Shown here: positions 3,796 to 13,448 of the stretch, piece by piece | How the letters are laid out: each line of letters begins with the position of its first letter | How positions within the stretch are numbered: the stretch's first letter is position 1 | Source of the DNA: Bathymodiolus thermophilus thioautotrophic gill symbiont | GTDB taxonomy: Bacteria > Pseudomonadota > Gammaproteobacteria > PS1 > Pseudothioglobaceae | Length of the DNA stretch: 64,000 nucleotides | Assembly: GCF_003711265.1 (NCBI RefSeq) | Contig: NZ_CP024634.1 | Coordinates: forward strand, 2,728,001-2,792,000 | Direction of reading: 5' to 3' | Made by a program: the position numbers and the translations under genes | Notes under the pieces: model-generated | Seen by the model: only the letters and a program-made list of their open reading frames with translations | The model's database searches: none | What the model was told of the DNA's origin: nothing

Positions 3796-4697
3796 AATGT
3801 TGCCAAAAATGCCTTTAATTCAGCTGACAACGGCGCTTTAACGGTTTGAATTTCTTCCGTACTTGGATTGGTAAAAGTTAATTGATGGGCATGTAAAAAC
3901 AAACGCCTCAGACCTTGAGCATGTAATTTACGGTCAAATTCCCTGTCGCCATATTTATCATCACCCGCCAACGGATGCCCTGCATATTGCGCATGCACAC
4001 GGATTTGATGCATTCGCCCAGTTTCAATTAACACTTCAACCAAAGCCGCATCAATACGGTCGAAATTTTTCAACGGTTGAAAATGACTCAACGCCTCTTT
4101 GCCTTTAACATCCACCACTGTGCAACGAGAATTTTGATGCAAAGGCGCATCAATCGTATGGCGTTTTTTTGACCAAGTGCCTTTAACTAAAGCGGTATAA
4201 CGCTTTTCCATTTGATGCTGCACCAATTGTTCATGCAAATTTTTCAACACACTGCGTTTTTTGGCAATCAACAACACACCCGAAGTCGCTCTATCAATAC
4301 GATGCACCAACTCCACAGGCGTGTTATACATATCTCTCAACGCCTCAATCACCCCCACATCAATCCCACTGCCACCATGGACTGCTAAACCACTCGGCTT
4401 ATTGATGATCAACAACCCTTTGTCTTCATATAAAATACTCTCAGTCAATAATTTCTTAAGACCGTCAGAAGTTTTACCAGACTTTGGCTCGGCAACCCGA
4501 ATAGGGGGAATGCGCACCACATCATCCATTTGTAATTTGTAATCCGCCTTTTTCCTGCCTTTATTAACCCGCACCTCGCCCTTACGAATTACCCGATAAA
4601 TATGCGATTTTGGCACGCCCTTTAGATGTTTTAATAAATAATTATCCAAGCGTTGCCCCACAGCAAATTCATCAACTGTTTGAAAAATAACGCTCAT
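3792..4697 (-). CDS. rluC: 23S rRNA pseudouridine synthase, RluC type
   Basis: Pseudouridine synthase of the RluA/RluC/RluD family, 301 residues. An N-terminal S4 RNA-binding domain (about residues 14-75, GQRLDNYLLKHL) is followed by the catalytic domain with VHRIDRATSGVLLIAKK, whose Asp is the nucleophile, and the C-terminal GRMHQIRVHAQYAGHPLAGD block. The wording of the HRIDRATSG region and the following LHEQL best fits RluC, which modifies positions 955, 2504 and 2580 in E. coli. RluD is the main alternative. It overlaps tatD by four bases upstream and ubiA by four bases downstream. Confidence 0.87.
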   Translation of the reverse strand: MSVIFQTVDEFAVGQRLDNYLLKHLKGVPKSHIYRVIRKGEVRVNKGRKKADYKLQMDDVVRIPPIRVAEPKSGKTSDGLKKLLTESILYEDKGLLIINKPSGLAVHGGSGIDVGVIEALRDMYNTPVELVHRIDRATSGVLLIAKKRSVLKNLHEQLVQHQMEKRYTALVKGTWSKKRHTIDAPLHQNSRCTVVDVKGKEALSHFQPLKNFDRIDAALVEVLIETGRMHQIRVHAQYAGHPLAGDDKYGDREFDRKLHAQGLRRLFLHAHQLTFTNPSTEEIQTVKAPLSAELKAFLATL

Positions 4698-5467
4698 AAG
4701 GCAAACAAGGTTTTAAAATTACTCGTGGTAGCACTGGCAATTGTCTCAATGCTTACGCCCCGAATTTCAGCTAATTTTTCAGCCGTATAATAAGTATAAG
4801 CAGGTGAATTAGGCTTACCACGATAAGGCACAGGGGTCAAATAAGGCGCATCCGTTTCCACCAAAATCCTATCCAACGGCACTTTTTTAGCAACCTCTCG
4901 CAAATCCCCCGCACTCTTAAAAGTAATAATGCCTGAAAATGAAATATAAAAACCCAAATCCAACGCCGCCTTAGCCGTCTCCCAATCCTCAGAAAAACAA
5001 TGCATCACCCCTTTCTGTGCCTGCTCTTCACGCATAATCTCAATAGTATCCGCCCTAGCATTCCGAGTATGAATAATCATCGGCTTACCCGAACGATTTG
5101 AAGCCTGAATATGTCGCCTAAAACGCGCCCTCTGCCAGTCAGCAGTGTCTTTTTCCACATGAAAATAATCCAACCCCGTCTCCCCAATAGCAATAATATT
5201 ATCATCCTGAGCCAACGCCAATAACGCCTCCACACTCGGATCCTGCCCCTCCATTTCACAAGGATGCACCCCCACCGACGCATAAATCTGCGGATACTTT
5301 TTCGCCAAAGCCAACACCTCATCAAAATGCTCCAAATCAATACAAACGCACAAAAATGTCTCCACCGATAGCGTCTTAGCATGCACCAACAAACTTTCCA
5401 TACTACCGCCAAATGCGGATAAATCTACTCTGTCGAGATGGCAATGTGAGTCAATAATTTTCATCAT
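4694..5467 (-). CDS. TatD family metal-dependent hydrolase
   Basis: TIM-barrel metallohydrolase of 257 residues. Metal-binding signatures are present in order: DSHCHLD at the N-terminus, IGETGLDYFH, IIHTRNA, MHCFS and VETDAPYLTPVPYRGK near the C-terminus. Family members (TatD, YcfH/YjjV) have 3'-5' exonuclease or related hydrolase activity on nucleic acid and perhaps D-aminoacyl substrates. The sequence is closest in style to YcfH, which often sits near pilZ/holB in other bacteria, but that context is absent here. Its start overlaps the stop of the upstream ATPase-nuclease gene by one base and its stop overlaps rluC. Confidence 0.9.
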   Translation of the reverse strand: MMKIIDSHCHLDRVDLSAFGGSMESLLVHAKTLSVETFLCVCIDLEHFDEVLALAKKYPQIYASVGVHPCEMEGQDPSVEALLALAQDDNIIAIGETGLDYFHVEKDTADWQRARFRRHIQASNRSGKPMIIHTRNARADTIEIMREEQAQKGVMHCFSEDWETAKAALDLGFYISFSGIITFKSAGDLREVAKKVPLDRILVETDAPYLTPVPYRGKPNSPAYTYYTAEKLAEIRGVSIETIASATTSNFKTLFAL

Positions 5468-7425
5468 TAAGAATCGTCAATTGACTGTAACAATTGTTGA
5501 ATACGCCCCTTATCTTTTCCTTTGTCTAGATAAGATTTATAACTATTTTCTGCGTCCTTAATTAATTGCTGATAAGTAATAACGGTTATATTGTGTGCCA
5601 TCAACGACTTTTCATCACTCTCTTTTTCAGATAGAACCTCCCATCCAGACAACCTATTGCCCACTAAACAAATTACTTCAATTTCACCTGTTTCGTTATG
5701 CTCATCAAGTTGTTTTTTTAACGCTCTTTTATACTTTTTAACCTGCTCTAAAATATTACCTGCTTTTGGCTTAACGCTAGATCTTTTTAATTCAATGATA
5801 ATATGCTTCCCTGAAGTTTTTCTATACTTAATATCAACTCGACCATTTTTCTCTTCTGCGCTTAGTTCGTCAGAGACACGACTAAACTCTGAGGTAATTT
5901 TTTTTTCCATAATAGGGGGCTCAGTTGCTCTTTCCCATGAAGGATCTAATAACCAAAGATGTTCATAGATATATTCTTGAACTACTTTTTCTAAAGCATT
6001 GCCCTCTATGTGTGTTTGTAATTTTTGAATTACACTCAGCCTGCCTACTGTGATTTGATAATACCAAGAAGCCTCTATATCGTCAAGCTCTGAAAAGATT
6101 TCTAGTGTTTGTTCAAAATTTTCGTCATTTAAGTTATCAAGCTGGCTTAATTTTTCCTTATGATGAAGCGTTTCAAAAGCAATTACTCCTTGCTTGTACA
6201 AAGATTTTCTTTGTAAGTCATCATCCAAGCTAATAGCATTAATTTTTCCAAACATGCTTTTAGCAGATTTTTTAGCATCTCCTTGTAAACTATTGAACCA
6301 TTCATTAATTGCCGGTATTTTTATCGCCATTTTTGTGCCATTTTCTTCTTTATATTTAACTCTTGCGTTACTAATGTATTTTAATTCATTCTCAATAAAC
6401 TCTTTAATCCTGATAAACCTCTTGTCATCTTGAATAAAATCCTGCCTACTAGATGTCGCTATATCTTCATCGTCTGTGTCATCTAGAAAGTCTGCTCTAA
6501 TTTCTCCTATTAAAAACTTTGTATAAAGCCCACCTTCTCTATATGAAACTAAAATATCCTCTAATGCAACCTTACCTCTAGACAATATAGAAATTTTATT
6601 TAAATTTACCCCATCCTCTTCTAAACTGCCAGACTCCTTAGATAATCCAATCCAACCACTAATTTTTAAACCATTTAGTTCGCTTGTTCTATCATGAACC
6701 ATATCATCGTCAAGCTTGCCTAAATACTTACCATAATTACCCAATTCTCCGTATTTTGTAGCAAATTCTAACTTATGAAAATAACCTCTGTCCCCAATAG
6801 TGACACTATCTCCATTTACTATGACTTTGAATTTATCCGAAAAAATATCAAAACGGCGAGAGATGCGTTTTTTTAAATTATTATTAATTGATGATTGAAC
6901 TCTTTTTTTAATGTCTCTTAAAATAATAACAGTGCCTGTTTCGCTTTCTATATTTATATGACCTATTTCATCTGGAAAATATTGCTCCTTAGATTCTATT
7001 TTTTCAATAATATCGCTGACATTCATTTTTATGCCAATTGTCTTGCCCTTTTTTTTTGTGTGTATTTCAATATCATTAGCAATAGAAAAAATTGACAACT
7101 TGCCGATCCCTTTTCTGCCCATTACTTGTCTACTAAATTTTGGAGTCAAGTCACCCCCCATATCCCTTCTTCTTTGGCGTCCTACCGTTAAAAACTTCTT
7201 ATTCATTTCTTGGGTGGTCATGCCACAACCATCATCTACGATCTTAATTTCTTCGTTAGATGTAGTAATTTTAATATTTTCAGAGTCTGCATCCCAAGAA
7301 TTAGCAATTATTTCTGATAAAACAGCAGGCACATTGCTATATAAATTAAGCCCTAAATGATTAAGTGCATTCAGATCAATGGTTAACTCATACTTGGATA
7401 CAGAAGATATGTTGTTATTTGCCAT
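5467..7425 (-). CDS. GHKL ATPase fused to a PD-(D/E)XK-like nuclease, partner of the adjacent m5C methyltransferase
   Basis: A protein of 652 residues. The N-terminal Hsp90/MutL-type GHKL ATPase has an N-box (SEIIANSWDAD, Glu38/Asn42), a G1 box DDGCGM (64-69) and a G2 box GRKGIGKLS (103-111). Near the C-terminus Asp531 and the IIIELKR motif (Glu545, Lys547) form a PD-(D/E)XK nuclease signature. The start at 7425 is preferred because AAGGAG lies just upstream; a longer frame to 7467 lacks such a site. It overlaps the methyltransferase by 11 bases, so the two are translated together. The likely role is the restriction or defence subunit of a modification-linked system. That is inference from architecture and neighbour, because no exact family name can be assigned without a search. 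Confidence 0.75.
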   Translation of the reverse strand: MANNNISSVSKYELTIDLNALNHLGLNLYSNVPAVLSEIIANSWDADSENIKITTSNEEIKIVDDGCGMTTQEMNKKFLTVGRQRRRDMGGDLTPKFSRQVMGRKGIGKLSIFSIANDIEIHTKKKGKTIGIKMNVSDIIEKIESKEQYFPDEIGHINIESETGTVIILRDIKKRVQSSINNNLKKRISRRFDIFSDKFKVIVNGDSVTIGDRGYFHKLEFATKYGELGNYGKYLGKLDDDMVHDRTSELNGLKISGWIGLSKESGSLEEDGVNLNKISILSRGKVALEDILVSYREGGLYTKFLIGEIRADFLDDTDDEDIATSSRQDFIQDDKRFIRIKEFIENELKYISNARVKYKEENGTKMAIKIPAINEWFNSLQGDAKKSAKSMFGKINAISLDDDLQRKSLYKQGVIAFETLHHKEKLSQLDNLNDENFEQTLEIFSELDDIEASWYYQITVGRLSVIQKLQTHIEGNALEKVVQEYIYEHLWLLDPSWERATEPPIMEKKITSEFSRVSDELSAEEKNGRVDIKYRKTSGKHIIIELKRSSVKPKAGNILEQVKKYKRALKKQLDEHNETGEIEVICLVGNRLSGWEVLSEKESDEKSLMAHNITVITYQQLIKDAENSYKSYLDKGKDKGRIQQLLQSIDDS

Positions 7426-8452
7426 AAAACTCCTTAATATGTTTATTAATTTGTTGTCCAACAACAAAACCTAGTTTTGGCGGAACTGCATTGCCAATAT
7501 GACGACTTGTAGCAACAATTCCAATTCCATCACCAAAATCATAATCTTTAGGAAATGTTTGCAATAATGCACCTTCCCTTATTGAAATAGCTCTATCTTG
7601 TTCAGGATGTCCAAATCTACCTGAGCCGTAACTGGTAAATTGAGTTGTGATAGTTGGTGAGACTTTATTCCAATTCATGCGACCATAAACAGTTGCATAA
7701 CTTTGTCCGCTTTCCTTTTTATAACAATCTAGCAATAATGTTTTATCCCAATCTTTCCATGTTCCACTGGGCCTTGACTGCCGTATTCTTTCTATATTTA
7801 ATGCAGAAAGGTTTCTAGATTTATGCACTTTATCTTTTTTACAAGTCTCGCCACTTTTTAGTGTTGGCAGGGTTTTAATAATTTTATTAATTGGAATATG
7901 GTTATCTTTTGTGTGGGTTTTTTGTGGCACAGATATATCGCCTAATTTAGAAGCTAAAAAAATTAATCGTTTTCTATTTTGTGGTATGCCGTAATCAGCA
8001 CAATTGACAACTTCGTAAGAAACCTTGTATTTCATTTTTTCTATTTGTTTAACAAAATTAGAAAATACTTGAGTTTTAGTTATCCCTCGTACATTTTCCA
8101 TGGAGATAATATCTGGCTCTATTACTTTAATTCCTCGCAAAAAATGATCAATCATATTCCATCTTACATCTTTTTCTCTGTCTTTCACTTTAAAGGTGTG
8201 AGATGAGAATGTTTGACAAGGTGCGCAACCTGCTAAGACCTTAATACTGTCTTTAGAATACATCTCTTTCATAGCTTTAAAGCCATATTTGGAAACATCT
8301 TCACAAATAAAATTAACACCATTATTTTTTTTGTACGAATATTCACATGATTTGTCATTATCAAGGCCAACAAGCACTTTTATCTTTGCCTGTTGCAGGC
8401 CGTATGTCAGACCACCGATACCGCAGAATAAATCAATTGCCTCTATTTTCAT
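7415..8452 (-). CDS. DNA (cytosine-5-)-methyltransferase
   Basis: A C5-cytosine DNA methyltransferase of 345 residues using S-adenosylmethionine. All key motifs are visible in order: I (DLFCGIGGLTYGLQ), IV with the catalytic Cys (AGCAPCQTFS), VI (MENVRG), VIII (GIPQNRKRLIFLA) and X (RHIGNAVPPKLG). The target recognition region lies between VIII and X (about residues 175-275), and its sequence specificity cannot be read by eye. It overlaps the AsmA-like gene by four bases and the GHKL ATPase-nuclease by eleven. This points to a restriction-modification or related defence pair inserted within a housekeeping operon. An orphan regulatory methylase is less likely given the nuclease partner. Confidence 0.93.
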   Translation of the reverse strand: MKIEAIDLFCGIGGLTYGLQQAKIKVLVGLDNDKSCEYSYKKNNGVNFICEDVSKYGFKAMKEMYSKDSIKVLAGCAPCQTFSSHTFKVKDREKDVRWNMIDHFLRGIKVIEPDIISMENVRGITKTQVFSNFVKQIEKMKYKVSYEVVNCADYGIPQNRKRLIFLASKLGDISVPQKTHTKDNHIPINKIIKTLPTLKSGETCKKDKVHKSRNLSALNIERIRQSRPSGTWKDWDKTLLLDCYKKESGQSYATVYGRMNWNKVSPTITTQFTSYGSGRFGHPEQDRAISIREGALLQTFPKDYDFGDGIGIVATSRHIGNAVPPKLGFVVGQQINKHIKEFYGK

Positions 8453-9240
8453 AACCCTAACCCCTTAAATAATTTCTTGGCTTTATTTTTAATATCATCA
8501 GTATCAAATTGCTTTTCAATGTCATCTAAACTACCCTTGATGCCGAGTTTTTGTTCAATCTGGCGGCGTAAGTTGGCTTCAATTTCTTTTTTACCTGTTA
8601 TTATCCCTTTTTTTTCTAAGGCGTTTTTTAGATTGTGCAGGATTTCTTTCGCCACTTCCTTGCCAATTTTATCAACTGGAATGCCAGAACTGCCACCAAA
8701 ATTGCGTGCTGAGATATTGGGTACTTTAAGGGTGGTTTTGAGCCATTTGGTGTTAATTTTAAGGCTAATGTTGCGGACTTCAAGGTGTTTTATTTGAATG
8801 CGTTTTGTTTGGGATTTTTGGGATTTTTGGGTTGTGGGTTTGGCGCTGGTTAGGGTGTTGTTGTCGGGTTTGTCTAAATTGGTTAATAATTGGGTTAAAT
8901 TGACTTGGTTGGCATTTTGTTCTAGGGCAAATTGCAAGCCATCCAGTTTGATTTCGTCAATAACGATTAAATGGCTATTTATGGGACCGATTTTGAGTAA
9001 AAAGTGATCCAGAGAAAGGGCGTCTTTATGCTTGAAATTAAAGGGGTTCTGCACTTTGATGAAGTCAATATTAAGGCTTTTTTCAAACAAATGGAGACTA
9101 AATTGGCTGATTTCAACGGGTGATTTGAACAAGGTTTGGGCGTATTTTTGAGTGTAATGTTTGCCAATTGGGTTGATAAAAAAAGCGATGGCTAGGGCTA
9201 GAATGGCAAGTAAAGCTAATATTTTGTAGAGTATTTTCAT
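8449..9240 (-). CDS. AsmA-like single-pass membrane protein
   Basis: A 263-residue protein with one N-terminal membrane anchor (residues about 4-24, ILALLAILALAIAFFI), no lipobox and a periplasmic remainder. The phrases VEISQFSLHLFEKSLNIDFIKVQNP and IDEIKLDGLQFALE resemble AsmA/TamB-type proteins, which are beta-rich lipid-handling proteins of the envelope. A low-complexity Ser/Thr/Gln/Lys linker (TTQKSQKSQTK) follows, then a C-terminal region rich in charged helices. Its stop overlaps the methyltransferase start by four bases, so it heads the leftward run that ends at ubiA. Family membership is suggested, not proven, and no specific function can be assigned. Confidence 0.6.
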   Translation of the reverse strand: MKILYKILALLAILALAIAFFINPIGKHYTQKYAQTLFKSPVEISQFSLHLFEKSLNIDFIKVQNPFNFKHKDALSLDHFLLKIGPINSHLIVIDEIKLDGLQFALEQNANQVNLTQLLTNLDKPDNNTLTSAKPTTQKSQKSQTKRIQIKHLEVRNISLKINTKWLKTTLKVPNISARNFGGSSGIPVDKIGKEVAKEILHNLKNALEKKGIITGKKEIEANLRRQIEQKLGIKGSLDDIEKQFDTDDIKNKAKKLFKGLGL

Positions 9241-12389: not shown

Positions 12390-12645
12390 CTGATTTTCTA
12401 AGACACAATGAATGGCTTCCTTGACAATGCTCATCACAGGCTTATTGGAGATATTTAGCGTGCAAAACTGTATCAATTGCTCAATCCATCTTTGACCAAA
12501 TGCCCTTTACCAATGCTCATTTACGCTAGGATTTCAATGTTATGAGAAATCAACAAAGTCTTTACCCATGTAAGCAAAAGCAAGCGTCACCTCGGTACCT
12601 GCGCGTGCCCATCGTCAATTATGACAACTGAGAACTACTTATTCA
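12390..12645 (-). pseudogene. Decayed duplicate of the mnmG 5' end
   Basis: Aligned by eye, this stretch matches the first roughly 105 codons of the intact mnmG with many substitutions and small gaps. Shared blocks include CTGATTTTCTAA, GACCAAATGCCCTTTACCAAT, read with one or two changes, and ATGTTATGAGAAATCAACAAA. Read leftward it begins ATG AAT AAG and hits TAG at codon four, but still recalls [13 protein letters not shown] from the parent. It is a non-functional relic of a tandem duplication whose two copies now flank the dead VapBC pair. Its first codons are also the last codons of the neighbouring membrane-protein gene. Confidence 0.8.
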
Positions 12646-12992
12646 TTTGTTTCATAAAGCCACTTAGAGGCTATATAAAACACACCCAAAATATTTGCAG
12701 TAGTTGTGCTTAATAAAGCAATTAATACTGAGCCCTTAAGTTGAAAATAATGTTCATTCCCAGTGAGCAAGAAAAATACTAAAAGAATATAAACACAAAT
12801 AGCCCAAAACAGTTTTTTGTATATTTCAACTGCGAGTTCGTGTTTGTTATTTTTGTGCTTTAACTCTTGTCTTTCTTTTTTAGAACTTAAAGATTCAGAA
12901 AGATCTTGCTCTGACCCTTGGGCTTCACTTTGGGGCTCTATGTTCTGCGACTTTTCTATTCTTTCTTGTATAAGTTTATAATAATCAACCAT
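12639..12992 (-). CDS. Small two-helix membrane protein, putative toxin of a Panacea system
   Basis: A protein of 117 residues, not recognised as a named family. The N-terminal half is charged and helical (SKKERQELKHKNNKHELAVE). It is followed by two hydrophobic helices, about residues 65-85 (FWAICVYILLVFFLL) and 92-112 (SVLIALLSTTTANILGVFYIA). The ATG at 12992 is preferred over a TTG nine bases earlier. It begins ten bases after the stop of the DUF4065/Panacea gene and is transcribed with it. Known Panacea antitoxins are paired with many toxins, including small membrane proteins, so this is a candidate membrane-acting toxin. That role is inferred from context. Its last codons run into the decayed mnmG copy, so the native C-terminus may have been altered. 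Confidence 0.6.
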   Translation of the reverse strand: MVDYYKLIQERIEKSQNIEPQSEAQGSEQDLSESLSSKKERQELKHKNNKHELAVEIYKKLFWAICVYILLVFFLLTGNEHYFQLKGSVLIALLSTTTANILGVFYIASKWLYETNE

Positions 12993-13001
12993 AATTATCA
13001 A

Positions 13002-13448
13002 TTAAACACGATTATTCTTATAAGACTCATATATATCGTCAGCAGGAATTACGCCATATTTATTGTTTTTCCAAGATTTACTCCAAGGAGTATTCTCTTT
13101 ATGTGTTAAATTTGATAATTGCATGCCACTATATTGCTTATAATTTTCATACACAGCTTTGACAATCTCCAAACTATCTTCATCAAGCTCTTCTGCATTA
13201 TCAGAACCTATACTTTTTGTCACCTCATTAGAGCCATACTGTCGCAACTGTTCATAAAGTTCTGGCACGACAGGCCCAAAATTCCAAGCCCTAGTATCTT
13301 CATAGTACAGTTTAGTACCTCTAAGCGCTAAATTATATCCATGTGCAATATAAACCATCTTTTGTAATTGCATATTAGTTAAATACTTACCCTTATCTTT
13401 GGCTAAATCAATAAATTTATTAGCAATAGTTATCGCCGAATAAACCAT
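13002..13448 (-). CDS. Panacea-domain (DUF4065) protein, putative antitoxin
   Basis: A 148-residue protein of the Panacea/SocA-like domain family. Diagnostic features are the start AITIANKFIDLAKDKGKYLT, LQKMVYIAHGYNLAL, the YEDTRAWNFGPVVPELYEQL block and the closing TPWSKSWKNN. Panacea proteins are known as promiscuous antitoxins that neutralise varied toxins encoded beside them. Here the adjacent downstream gene is a small membrane protein. A 25-bp perfect inverted repeat lies just upstream and could be an autoregulatory operator. No helix-turn-helix extension is seen, so DNA binding would have to come from the Panacea domain itself or from the complex. Domain assignment is good; the toxin-antitoxin role is inferred. 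Confidence 0.82.
   Translation of the reverse strand: MVYSAITIANKFIDLAKDKGKYLTNMQLQKMVYIAHGYNLALRGTKLYYEDTRAWNFGPVVPELYEQLRQYGSNEVTKSIGSDNAEELDEDSLEIVKAVYENYKQYSGMQLSNLTHKENTPWSKSWKNNKYGVIPADDIYESYKNNRV

Follow-up and report, generated by a model that had tools for sequence, protein, structure and literature searches.

The window analyzed here, the whole 64,000-nucleotide (nt) stretch of DNA from the Bathymodiolus thermophilus thioautotrophic gill symbiont, harbors two overlapping genes that encode a cytosine DNA methylase and a 652-amino-acid (aa) protein and that, by sequence comparison, are another BbrUII/HgiDII system. The pair is read, with a probability of about 85%, as a type II restriction-modification pair in which a GHKL-S5 clamp is combined with a predicted PD-(D/E)XK cutting domain. 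This reading is based on the match to NCBIfam family NF050001, the conservation of GHKL and nuclease residues, the MORC/Hsp90 fold, the methylases M.HgiDII and M.BbrUII, a conserved target region, and a low count of GTCGAC in a genome sample. The NF050001 model, named BbrUII/HgiDII family restriction enzyme, is matched over positions 1-659 of 659 (1.4e-231; 770.6 bits, with 550 required), and the family resembles the window pair in whole length, domain order, and the adjacent 5-methylcytosine (5mC) methylase; nothing was found in the sequence that sets the window protein apart. PADLOC labels the 652-aa protein REase_II (3.5e-94), and its best model for the window methylase is DrmMII of DISARM. 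The original prediction had proposed a restriction pair in which a methylase overlaps the open reading frame (ORF) of a GHKL ATPase-nuclease; the family match bears this out, and both ORFs are confirmed. The system and its flanks are arranged as follows.

7415..8452, minus strand: C5-cytosine DNA methyltransferase, 345 aa (Pfam DNA_methylase, 4.3e-60; TIGR00675, 134.7 bits versus 100.65), with the motifs PCQ 78-80, ENV 119-121, QxRxR 158-162, and GNA 320-322 invariant in alignments A1/A3
5467..7425, minus strand: BbrUII/HgiDII-family restriction enzyme, 652 aa, from an ATG start at 7425 to a stop at 5467
6343..7398, minus strand: GHKL ATPase and S5-like domain, residues ~10-361 (HATPase_c_3; fold match to the MORC3 ATPase)
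5575..5913, minus strand: predicted PD-(D/E)XK nuclease domain, residues ~505-617, with E507, D531, E545, and K547 (PDDEXK_4; model; conservation)
7415..7425, minus strand: 11-nt overlap of the methylase 3' end with the nuclease 5' end
8449..9240, minus strand: DUF748-like gene, a host gene flanking the system (Pfam, 43.1 bits, under the cut-off of 50)
4694..5467, minus strand: tatD, a host gene flanking the system (TatD_DNase, 1.4e-84), where interspecies DNA homology resumes

The stop of the DUF748-like gene and the start of the methylase share 4 nt, and an alternative TTG start at 7467 would extend the nuclease to 666 aa. Among the ORFs of the window, those between the DUF748-like gene and tatD comprise the methylase and nuclease genes with no further gene, hence no helicase.

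The N-terminal part of the 652-aa protein matches HATPase_c_3 in Pfam (4.2e-19), and the residues E38, N42, D64, G66, G68, G103, G106, and G108 are invariant in 11/11 rows of alignment A5 and 8/8 rows of alignment A2, in agreement with the MutL/Hsp90-type ATPase boxes predicted earlier. An AlphaFold2 model of the protein has a mean predicted local distance difference test score of 78.4, and a fold search with it retrieves the ATPase (ATPase-CW) structures of MORC3 over residues 20-361 (Z 23.1, root-mean-square deviation 3.6, 289 residues); on this model the N-terminal part is a MORC/Hsp90 fold. GHKL/MORC modules are dimerizing clamps and not helicase-type translocases, which makes the GHKL "motor" of the original prediction doubtful.

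The nuclease assignment of the C-terminal tail relies on residue conservation together with a PDDEXK_4 match over the gathering score (26.6 versus 22.3 bits, 6.9e-6). No DUF4263 is present among the Pfam matches of the protein up to E 1; PDDEXK_4, which like DUF4263 belongs to PD-(D/E)XK, is found instead. Among the A5 relatives, D531 is kept in 9/10, E545 and K547 each in 8/10, and E507 in 7/10, the exceptions being L034, whose frame stops ahead of E545, and L104, in which positions 531 and 545 are occupied by H and S and position 547 is a gap. Six of the A2 relatives carry the tail; all six keep D531, and five keep E545 (D in L024) and K547 (M in L029, which scores under the family cut-off). 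The modeled tail consists of a helix (505-519), two strands (529-537 and 540-547), a helix (555-575), and a strand (581-588), with D531 on the first strand and E545 and K547 on the second, and this order, judged by eye, fits a PD-(D/E)XK fold. Residues 531, 545, and 547 had thus been named correctly in the numbering of the 652-aa protein, and the profile match and conservation support a nuclease domain around them. The bare D...ExK motif carries no weight as evidence and was rejected, as D-x(8-20)-E-x-K occurs in 98% of shuffled sequences (7 seen, 5.5 expected). The relative in L104 (2643-4616, Halarchaeum), which lies beside a methylase and has none of the three residues, is perhaps a dead or altered nuclease.

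Proteins of this architecture have been described before. GHKL and S5 domains with restriction endonuclease-fold tails (paraMORC3) or TIR tails (paraMORC4) were predicted in restriction operons by Iyer, Abhiman and Aravind in 2008 (PMC2292703; this and the other papers are cited from those parts of their text that were available). The window protein resembles paraMORC3 in architecture, in its restriction-modification context, and in its residues, as E507, D531, E545, and K547 together form the paraMORC3-type E-D-ExK set; the 2008 paper is a prediction, and HgiDII and BbrII are named 0 times in the available part of it. A second relative is VcSduA, the GHKL Shedu of Vibrio cholerae, in which a GHKL ATPase also precedes a PD-(D/E)xK nuclease and phage defense needs both the ATPase and the nuclease residues; VcSduA is reported as a DUF4263 nuclease, whereas the window tail matches PDDEXK_4 and is coupled to a methylase (PMC12137116). 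The claim that the pair is unusual and mechanistically distinct was therefore too strong, given a named family and an architecture already published as paraMORC3.

The target of the window pair is inferred to be GTCGAC, based on family membership and on the specificity of M.HgiDII, a characterized 5mC methylase of GTCGAC; M.BbrUII is likewise a characterized 5mC methylase (PMC5867850). The target-recognition region of the methylase (171-270) is conserved to about the same extent as the N-terminal core, with mean identities to the window methylase of 53 versus 52% in loci with TIR partners, 42 versus 42% with PD-(D/E)XK, 47 versus 46% with DUF262, and 45 versus 48% with other GHKL partners; the region is within 3 points of the core, or above it, in every partner class. 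In L004, a sister-species locus with a GHKL-TIR partner, and L143, from the sister genome G007, the values are 85-87 versus 84-87%, whereas the distant L028 (14.5 versus 29.8%) and L029 (27 versus 34%) diverge in the target region. The comparison suggests one shared target across the methylase clade. In a 464-kb sample of the window's genome, GTCGAC is the fifth lowest of 64 palindromes, with an observed-to-expected ratio of 0.42 (8 seen versus 18.8 expected).

Several observations weigh against the BbrUII/HgiDII reading as set out above. The fold-search matches of the model are to the ATPase domain, leaving the nuclease part outside that search, and a profile of the tail (A7) compared with solved structures gives no match (best E 0.11). 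Similarity to the whole query determined the ranking of the loci; this favors a conserved target region and makes its conservation partly a product of selection. The whole-genome density of GTCGAC in the window's genome, ~29 per Mb, is the third highest of 12, and genomes in which the site is empty have fewer (G001 ~3 and G010 ~18 per Mb). Site avoidance was rejected as proof of specificity; it is not diagnostic, the whole-genome densities lean the opposite way, and avoidance may persist after a system has been lost (PMC4687349).

In the proposed mechanism, the methylase would mark a cytosine in its site, probably GTCGAC, in host DNA. The partner would dimerize through its MORC/Hsp90-like GHKL-S5 clamp and bind DNA carrying the unmodified site; ATP may then close the GHKL dimer on this DNA and license the tail nucleases, so that the C-terminal PD-(D/E)XK domains would cut, with the GHKL-S5 part as the putative reader of methylation state. 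An ATP-gated clamp is the most likely form of the enzyme, and the "ATP-gated" nuclease of the original prediction is plausible given the intact GHKL residues and the example of VcSduA (PMC12137116). The GHKL domain could alternatively serve for dimerization only, in what would otherwise be a normal type II nuclease that works without ATP. Classical type II enzymes are independent of ATP, and the work on BbrII and HgiDII reportedly used standard digests. This alternative is nevertheless unlikely, as the eight GHKL residues are invariant across different phyla, as expected for working ATPases, and an ATPase mutant of VcSduA abolishes defense (PMC12137116). With its GHKL domain, the window protein also departs from classical type II restriction-modification, which has no nucleotide-dependent domain. 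Less probable still is a GHKL module that loops or moves DNA, with cutting away from the recognition site. Such movement is unneeded if BbrUII cuts within GTCGAC like SalI, and the interval between the DUF748-like gene and tatD is without a helicase gene; in its favor, looping was proposed in 2008 for MORC and paraMORC proteins (PMC2292703).

Different partners occupy the same chromosomal site in sister species. Searches for tatD and the methylase covered 12 genomes of the genus, and the stretches around the site were compared. The window's genome (G000) carries the methylase and GHKL-PD-(D/E)XK genes between the DUF748-like gene and tatD. In G006, a methylase (83% identical) is followed by a GHKL-TIR gene and then tatD, inside which the contig ends; G005 has methylase pieces (85-88%) and a GHKL-TIR gene at the same place, with the frames of both broken; and G007 has a methylase cut at ~residue 292 (87%), a 308-aa HNH protein (HNH_2, 8.1e-13), and tatD. 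The cassette is absent from G001 and G010, where tatD directly follows the DUF748-like gene, and ORFs with Sel1 repeats, recognized by eye, occupy the interval in G002 (L147:355-1600). In G003, G004, G008, and G009 the contig ends or a full tatD is lacking, and in G011 neither the DUF748-like gene nor the methylase is matched in the 3 kb examined. Window DNA can be aligned with that of G006 from 8649 to 7431, up to a point 6 nt short of the nuclease ATG, and once more starting at 5469. For G005 the alignment breaks off at 7478, 53 nt ahead of the ATG, and resumes at 5464; for G007 the corresponding positions are 7593 and 5470.

Some of these sites carry further remnants. A second, decaying copy in G005 (L145, contig C24) consists of a methylase fragment, pieces of an HNH ORF, a decayed tatD, and a pseudouridine synthase gene. 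G007, too, has a Sel1-repeat ORF, located upstream of its cassette, and the HNH_2 protein follows the truncated methylase at L143:2430-3356. Upstream of that methylase, L143 1376-1525 contains a 49-bp duplicate of the start of tatD (85.7%) within an ORF whose end, by eye, resembles that of the DUF748-like gene. The G007 arrangement looks like an insertion footprint before tatD.

The partner of the sister-species locus L004 has a TIR tail that matches SpbK (9phb, 5.6e-9; PADLOC spbK, 4e-14); no TIR match is found in Pfam up to E 0.1. A glutamate of this tail aligns with SpbK and is present in 6/6 rows of alignment A11 that reach the position; we take it to be the TIR catalytic residue. With its GHKL front and SpbK-like TIR tail, L004, and not the window protein, is the counterpart of paraMORC4.

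A broader view of the partners comes from a census of 80 loci, which are the best 80 of 515 confirmed as ranked by methylase alignment A3 and not a random sample, with partner classes assigned by iterated profiles. The partners are GHKL-PD-(D/E)XK in 10 loci, GHKL-TIR in 6, GHKL with a tail bearing the HEPN-like motif R-[DN]-x-x-x-H-T in 17, GHKL-Ymh in 2, other or cut GHKL in 3, DUF262 in 35, and none recognized in 7. A MAE_28990-like HEPN gene adjoins DUF262 in 34/35 loci; Pfam confirms GmrSD_N (DUF262) and HEPN_MAE_28990 in 3/3 scanned each, and Hypoth_Ymh in 2/2. These counts include near-copy or same-genome pairs (L043/L044, L076/L078, L085/L091, and L082/L093). The PD-(D/E)XK class includes L034, which stops before E545, L093, with an early stop after K547, and L104, which has lost the residues; the TIR of L070 is cut by a contig end; L040, with a DUF262 gene upstream besides its GHKL partner, is counted under GHKL; L074 shows no HEPN gene before its contig ends; and the DUF262 or HEPN matches of L105 and L106 fall in frames that are short or split. 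Two of the seven loci without a recognized partner, L086 and L108, stop shortly after the methylase. A very large ORF lies beside the methylase in four others (L064, L087, L103, and L107), and that of L103, the only one scanned, has SNF2-type helicase matches.

Partner classes are clustered on the methylase tree, those with DUF262 and PD-(D/E)XK above all, yet change often. The tree has 90 rows and was built by a quick method with support from the Shimodaira-Hasegawa-like approximate likelihood ratio test (SH-aLRT) only; L001 (the window's own copy), L002, L005, L106, and L111 were dropped, which leaves 34 DUF262 loci besides L106, and L025 has no methylase. Branches of L028, L029, and L026 are long, and L028 sits beside a HaeIII-type enzyme, so its label may be wrong. 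The partner class needs 33 changes on this tree (least possible 7; 28 without "none"), compared with 49.8 for shuffled labels; TIR alone is hardly clustered, with 7 changes, as few as in 100/500 shuffles. The window, L004, and L143 form a methylase clade with support 100 and three different partners. On the GHKL tree (48 rows; L001, L005, L071, and L111 dropped and L077 left out), on which long histidine-kinase and TIR branches meet, the tails require 5 changes (least possible 4; 23.6 with shuffled labels), suggesting that ATPase and tail mostly travel together. The GHKL part of L004 is placed within the group of GHKL parts that bear R-[DN]-x-x-x-H-T tails (98/97 support), a position suggestive of a tail swap.

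The R-[DN]-x-x-x-H-T tail was not accepted as a HEPN domain, as the motif is all that points to it, hence the label "HEPN-like motif". No Pfam HEPN match up to E 1 is found in 18/20 members of alignment A4, the other two being Hypoth_Ymh; profile-profile comparison with the MAE_28990-like and Ymh tails gives 0.3%, and comparison with solved structures gives no match (best E 0.072). Weak PADLOC matches are to PDC-M34B (0.0012, in 3/14) and CARF_HEPN (0.0018, in 1/14). The tail is predicted to be helical with low confidence, and fold-search matches are to the ATPase part.

Exchange of the partner gene beside a kept methylase appears to be the plainest reading of the site comparison. Separate insertions of whole cassettes at the tatD site would account for the joint travel of GHKL parts and tails, for the other contents of the site, such as the Sel1-repeat ORFs of G002, and for the short tatD-start copy on the far side of the G007 methylase. 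This rival is unlikely, as the window, L004, and L143 methylases are one clade on the quick SH-aLRT tree, and DNA homology with G006 and G005 extends from the DUF748-like gene across the methylase and stops just before the nuclease ATG; the data leave room for a variant in which cassettes arrive repeatedly from one source pool. A tentative extension, with odds clearly short of even, is that methylation acts as a password served by exchangeable weapons, in which GHKL-S5 would read site methylation and fire any tail, be it PD-(D/E)XK against DNA, TIR against NAD, or HEPN against RNA. If so, there would be restriction-modification systems that answer unmethylated DNA by cell suicide and not by DNA cleavage, with TIR and HEPN forms killing or stalling the cell, and that evolve through replacement of a single gene next to a methylase that stays in place. 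Against this extension, the R-[DN]-x-x-x-H-T tail is not proven to be HEPN, the commonest census partner is DUF262 and not a GHKL protein, and a PrrC-like guard model competes with it. In the guard model, GHKL partners with TIR or HEPN tails would watch over a restriction system and kill the cell when it is blocked, and would not be triggered by unmethylated sites, a role suggested earlier for the HEPN domains that occur in restriction operons (PMC3710099). It is somewhat doubtful, as the G006 cassette, in which GHKL-TIR stands between methylase and tatD, retains no nuclease to be guarded, although one may exist elsewhere in the genome.

Parts of this picture are already known, namely the family of the window pair, the fused GHKL forms (as predictions), and partner exchange for phosphorothioate systems. 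A 2013 paper (PMC3710099) reported paraMORCs with Ymh-HEPN tails as well as operons that combine MAE_28990 HEPN genes, a ParB nuclease, and a DNA methylase, and their GHKL-Ymh and DUF262 counterparts appear here in the same methylase clade; those HEPN proteins are predicted RNases, while the window protein is a predicted DNase. In phosphorothioate systems, modification and restriction modules are described as exchangeable or decoupled, and other nucleases or suicide effectors lie beside modification genes (PMC12707154, PMC10853773). The module exchange is alike, but Dnd/Ssp systems use a backbone sulfur mark and unrelated proteins in place of a cytosine methylase with partners of the GHKL or DUF262 type. 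Exchange of partners at the same locus on one methylase was not found described in the open-access literature searched. The window pair is of value in that it supplies one arm of a natural experiment, with closely similar methylases, one site, one genus, and three partners; if all partners answer the same mark, what the GHKL module does in restriction operons can be tested directly, and the boundary between restriction and abortive infection shifts.

Among 95 genomes including the window's own, the NF050001 cut-off is passed by the window's genome only; 86/95 match somewhere at E 0.001 or better, and 11/14 control genomes match under the cut-off via the ATPase part. Nuclease relatives occur in 32 plasmid records, seven of which were examined (26-42% identical); a cytosine methylase adjoins the relative in six (Rhizobium, Halobaculum, Deinococcus, Burkholderia, Streptococcus, and Pantoea), and none lies within the stretch examined of the Rubrobacter plasmid. 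Viral contigs yielded no nuclease relative (one pattern match, none confirmed). Relatives of the window methylase at E 1e-5 are held by 484 phage records, such as Moraxella phages Mcat24-32; 117 cover at least 80% of it, all at <60% identity, and possibly serve self-protection against such systems.

The window's genome harbors another methylase and GHKL pair (L002, G000:C1, ~33 kb). In its GHKL protein, HATPase_c occurs a second time and HEF_HK matches weakly; the protein resembles the histidine-kinase-like paraMORCs (PMC8011034). Elsewhere in the window, two adjacent ORFs, one encoding a small membrane protein, lie on the minus strand at 12639-13448. One of them presumably encodes a Panacea/SocA-like protein, as recognized by eye, and the two are possibly a toxin-antitoxin pair.

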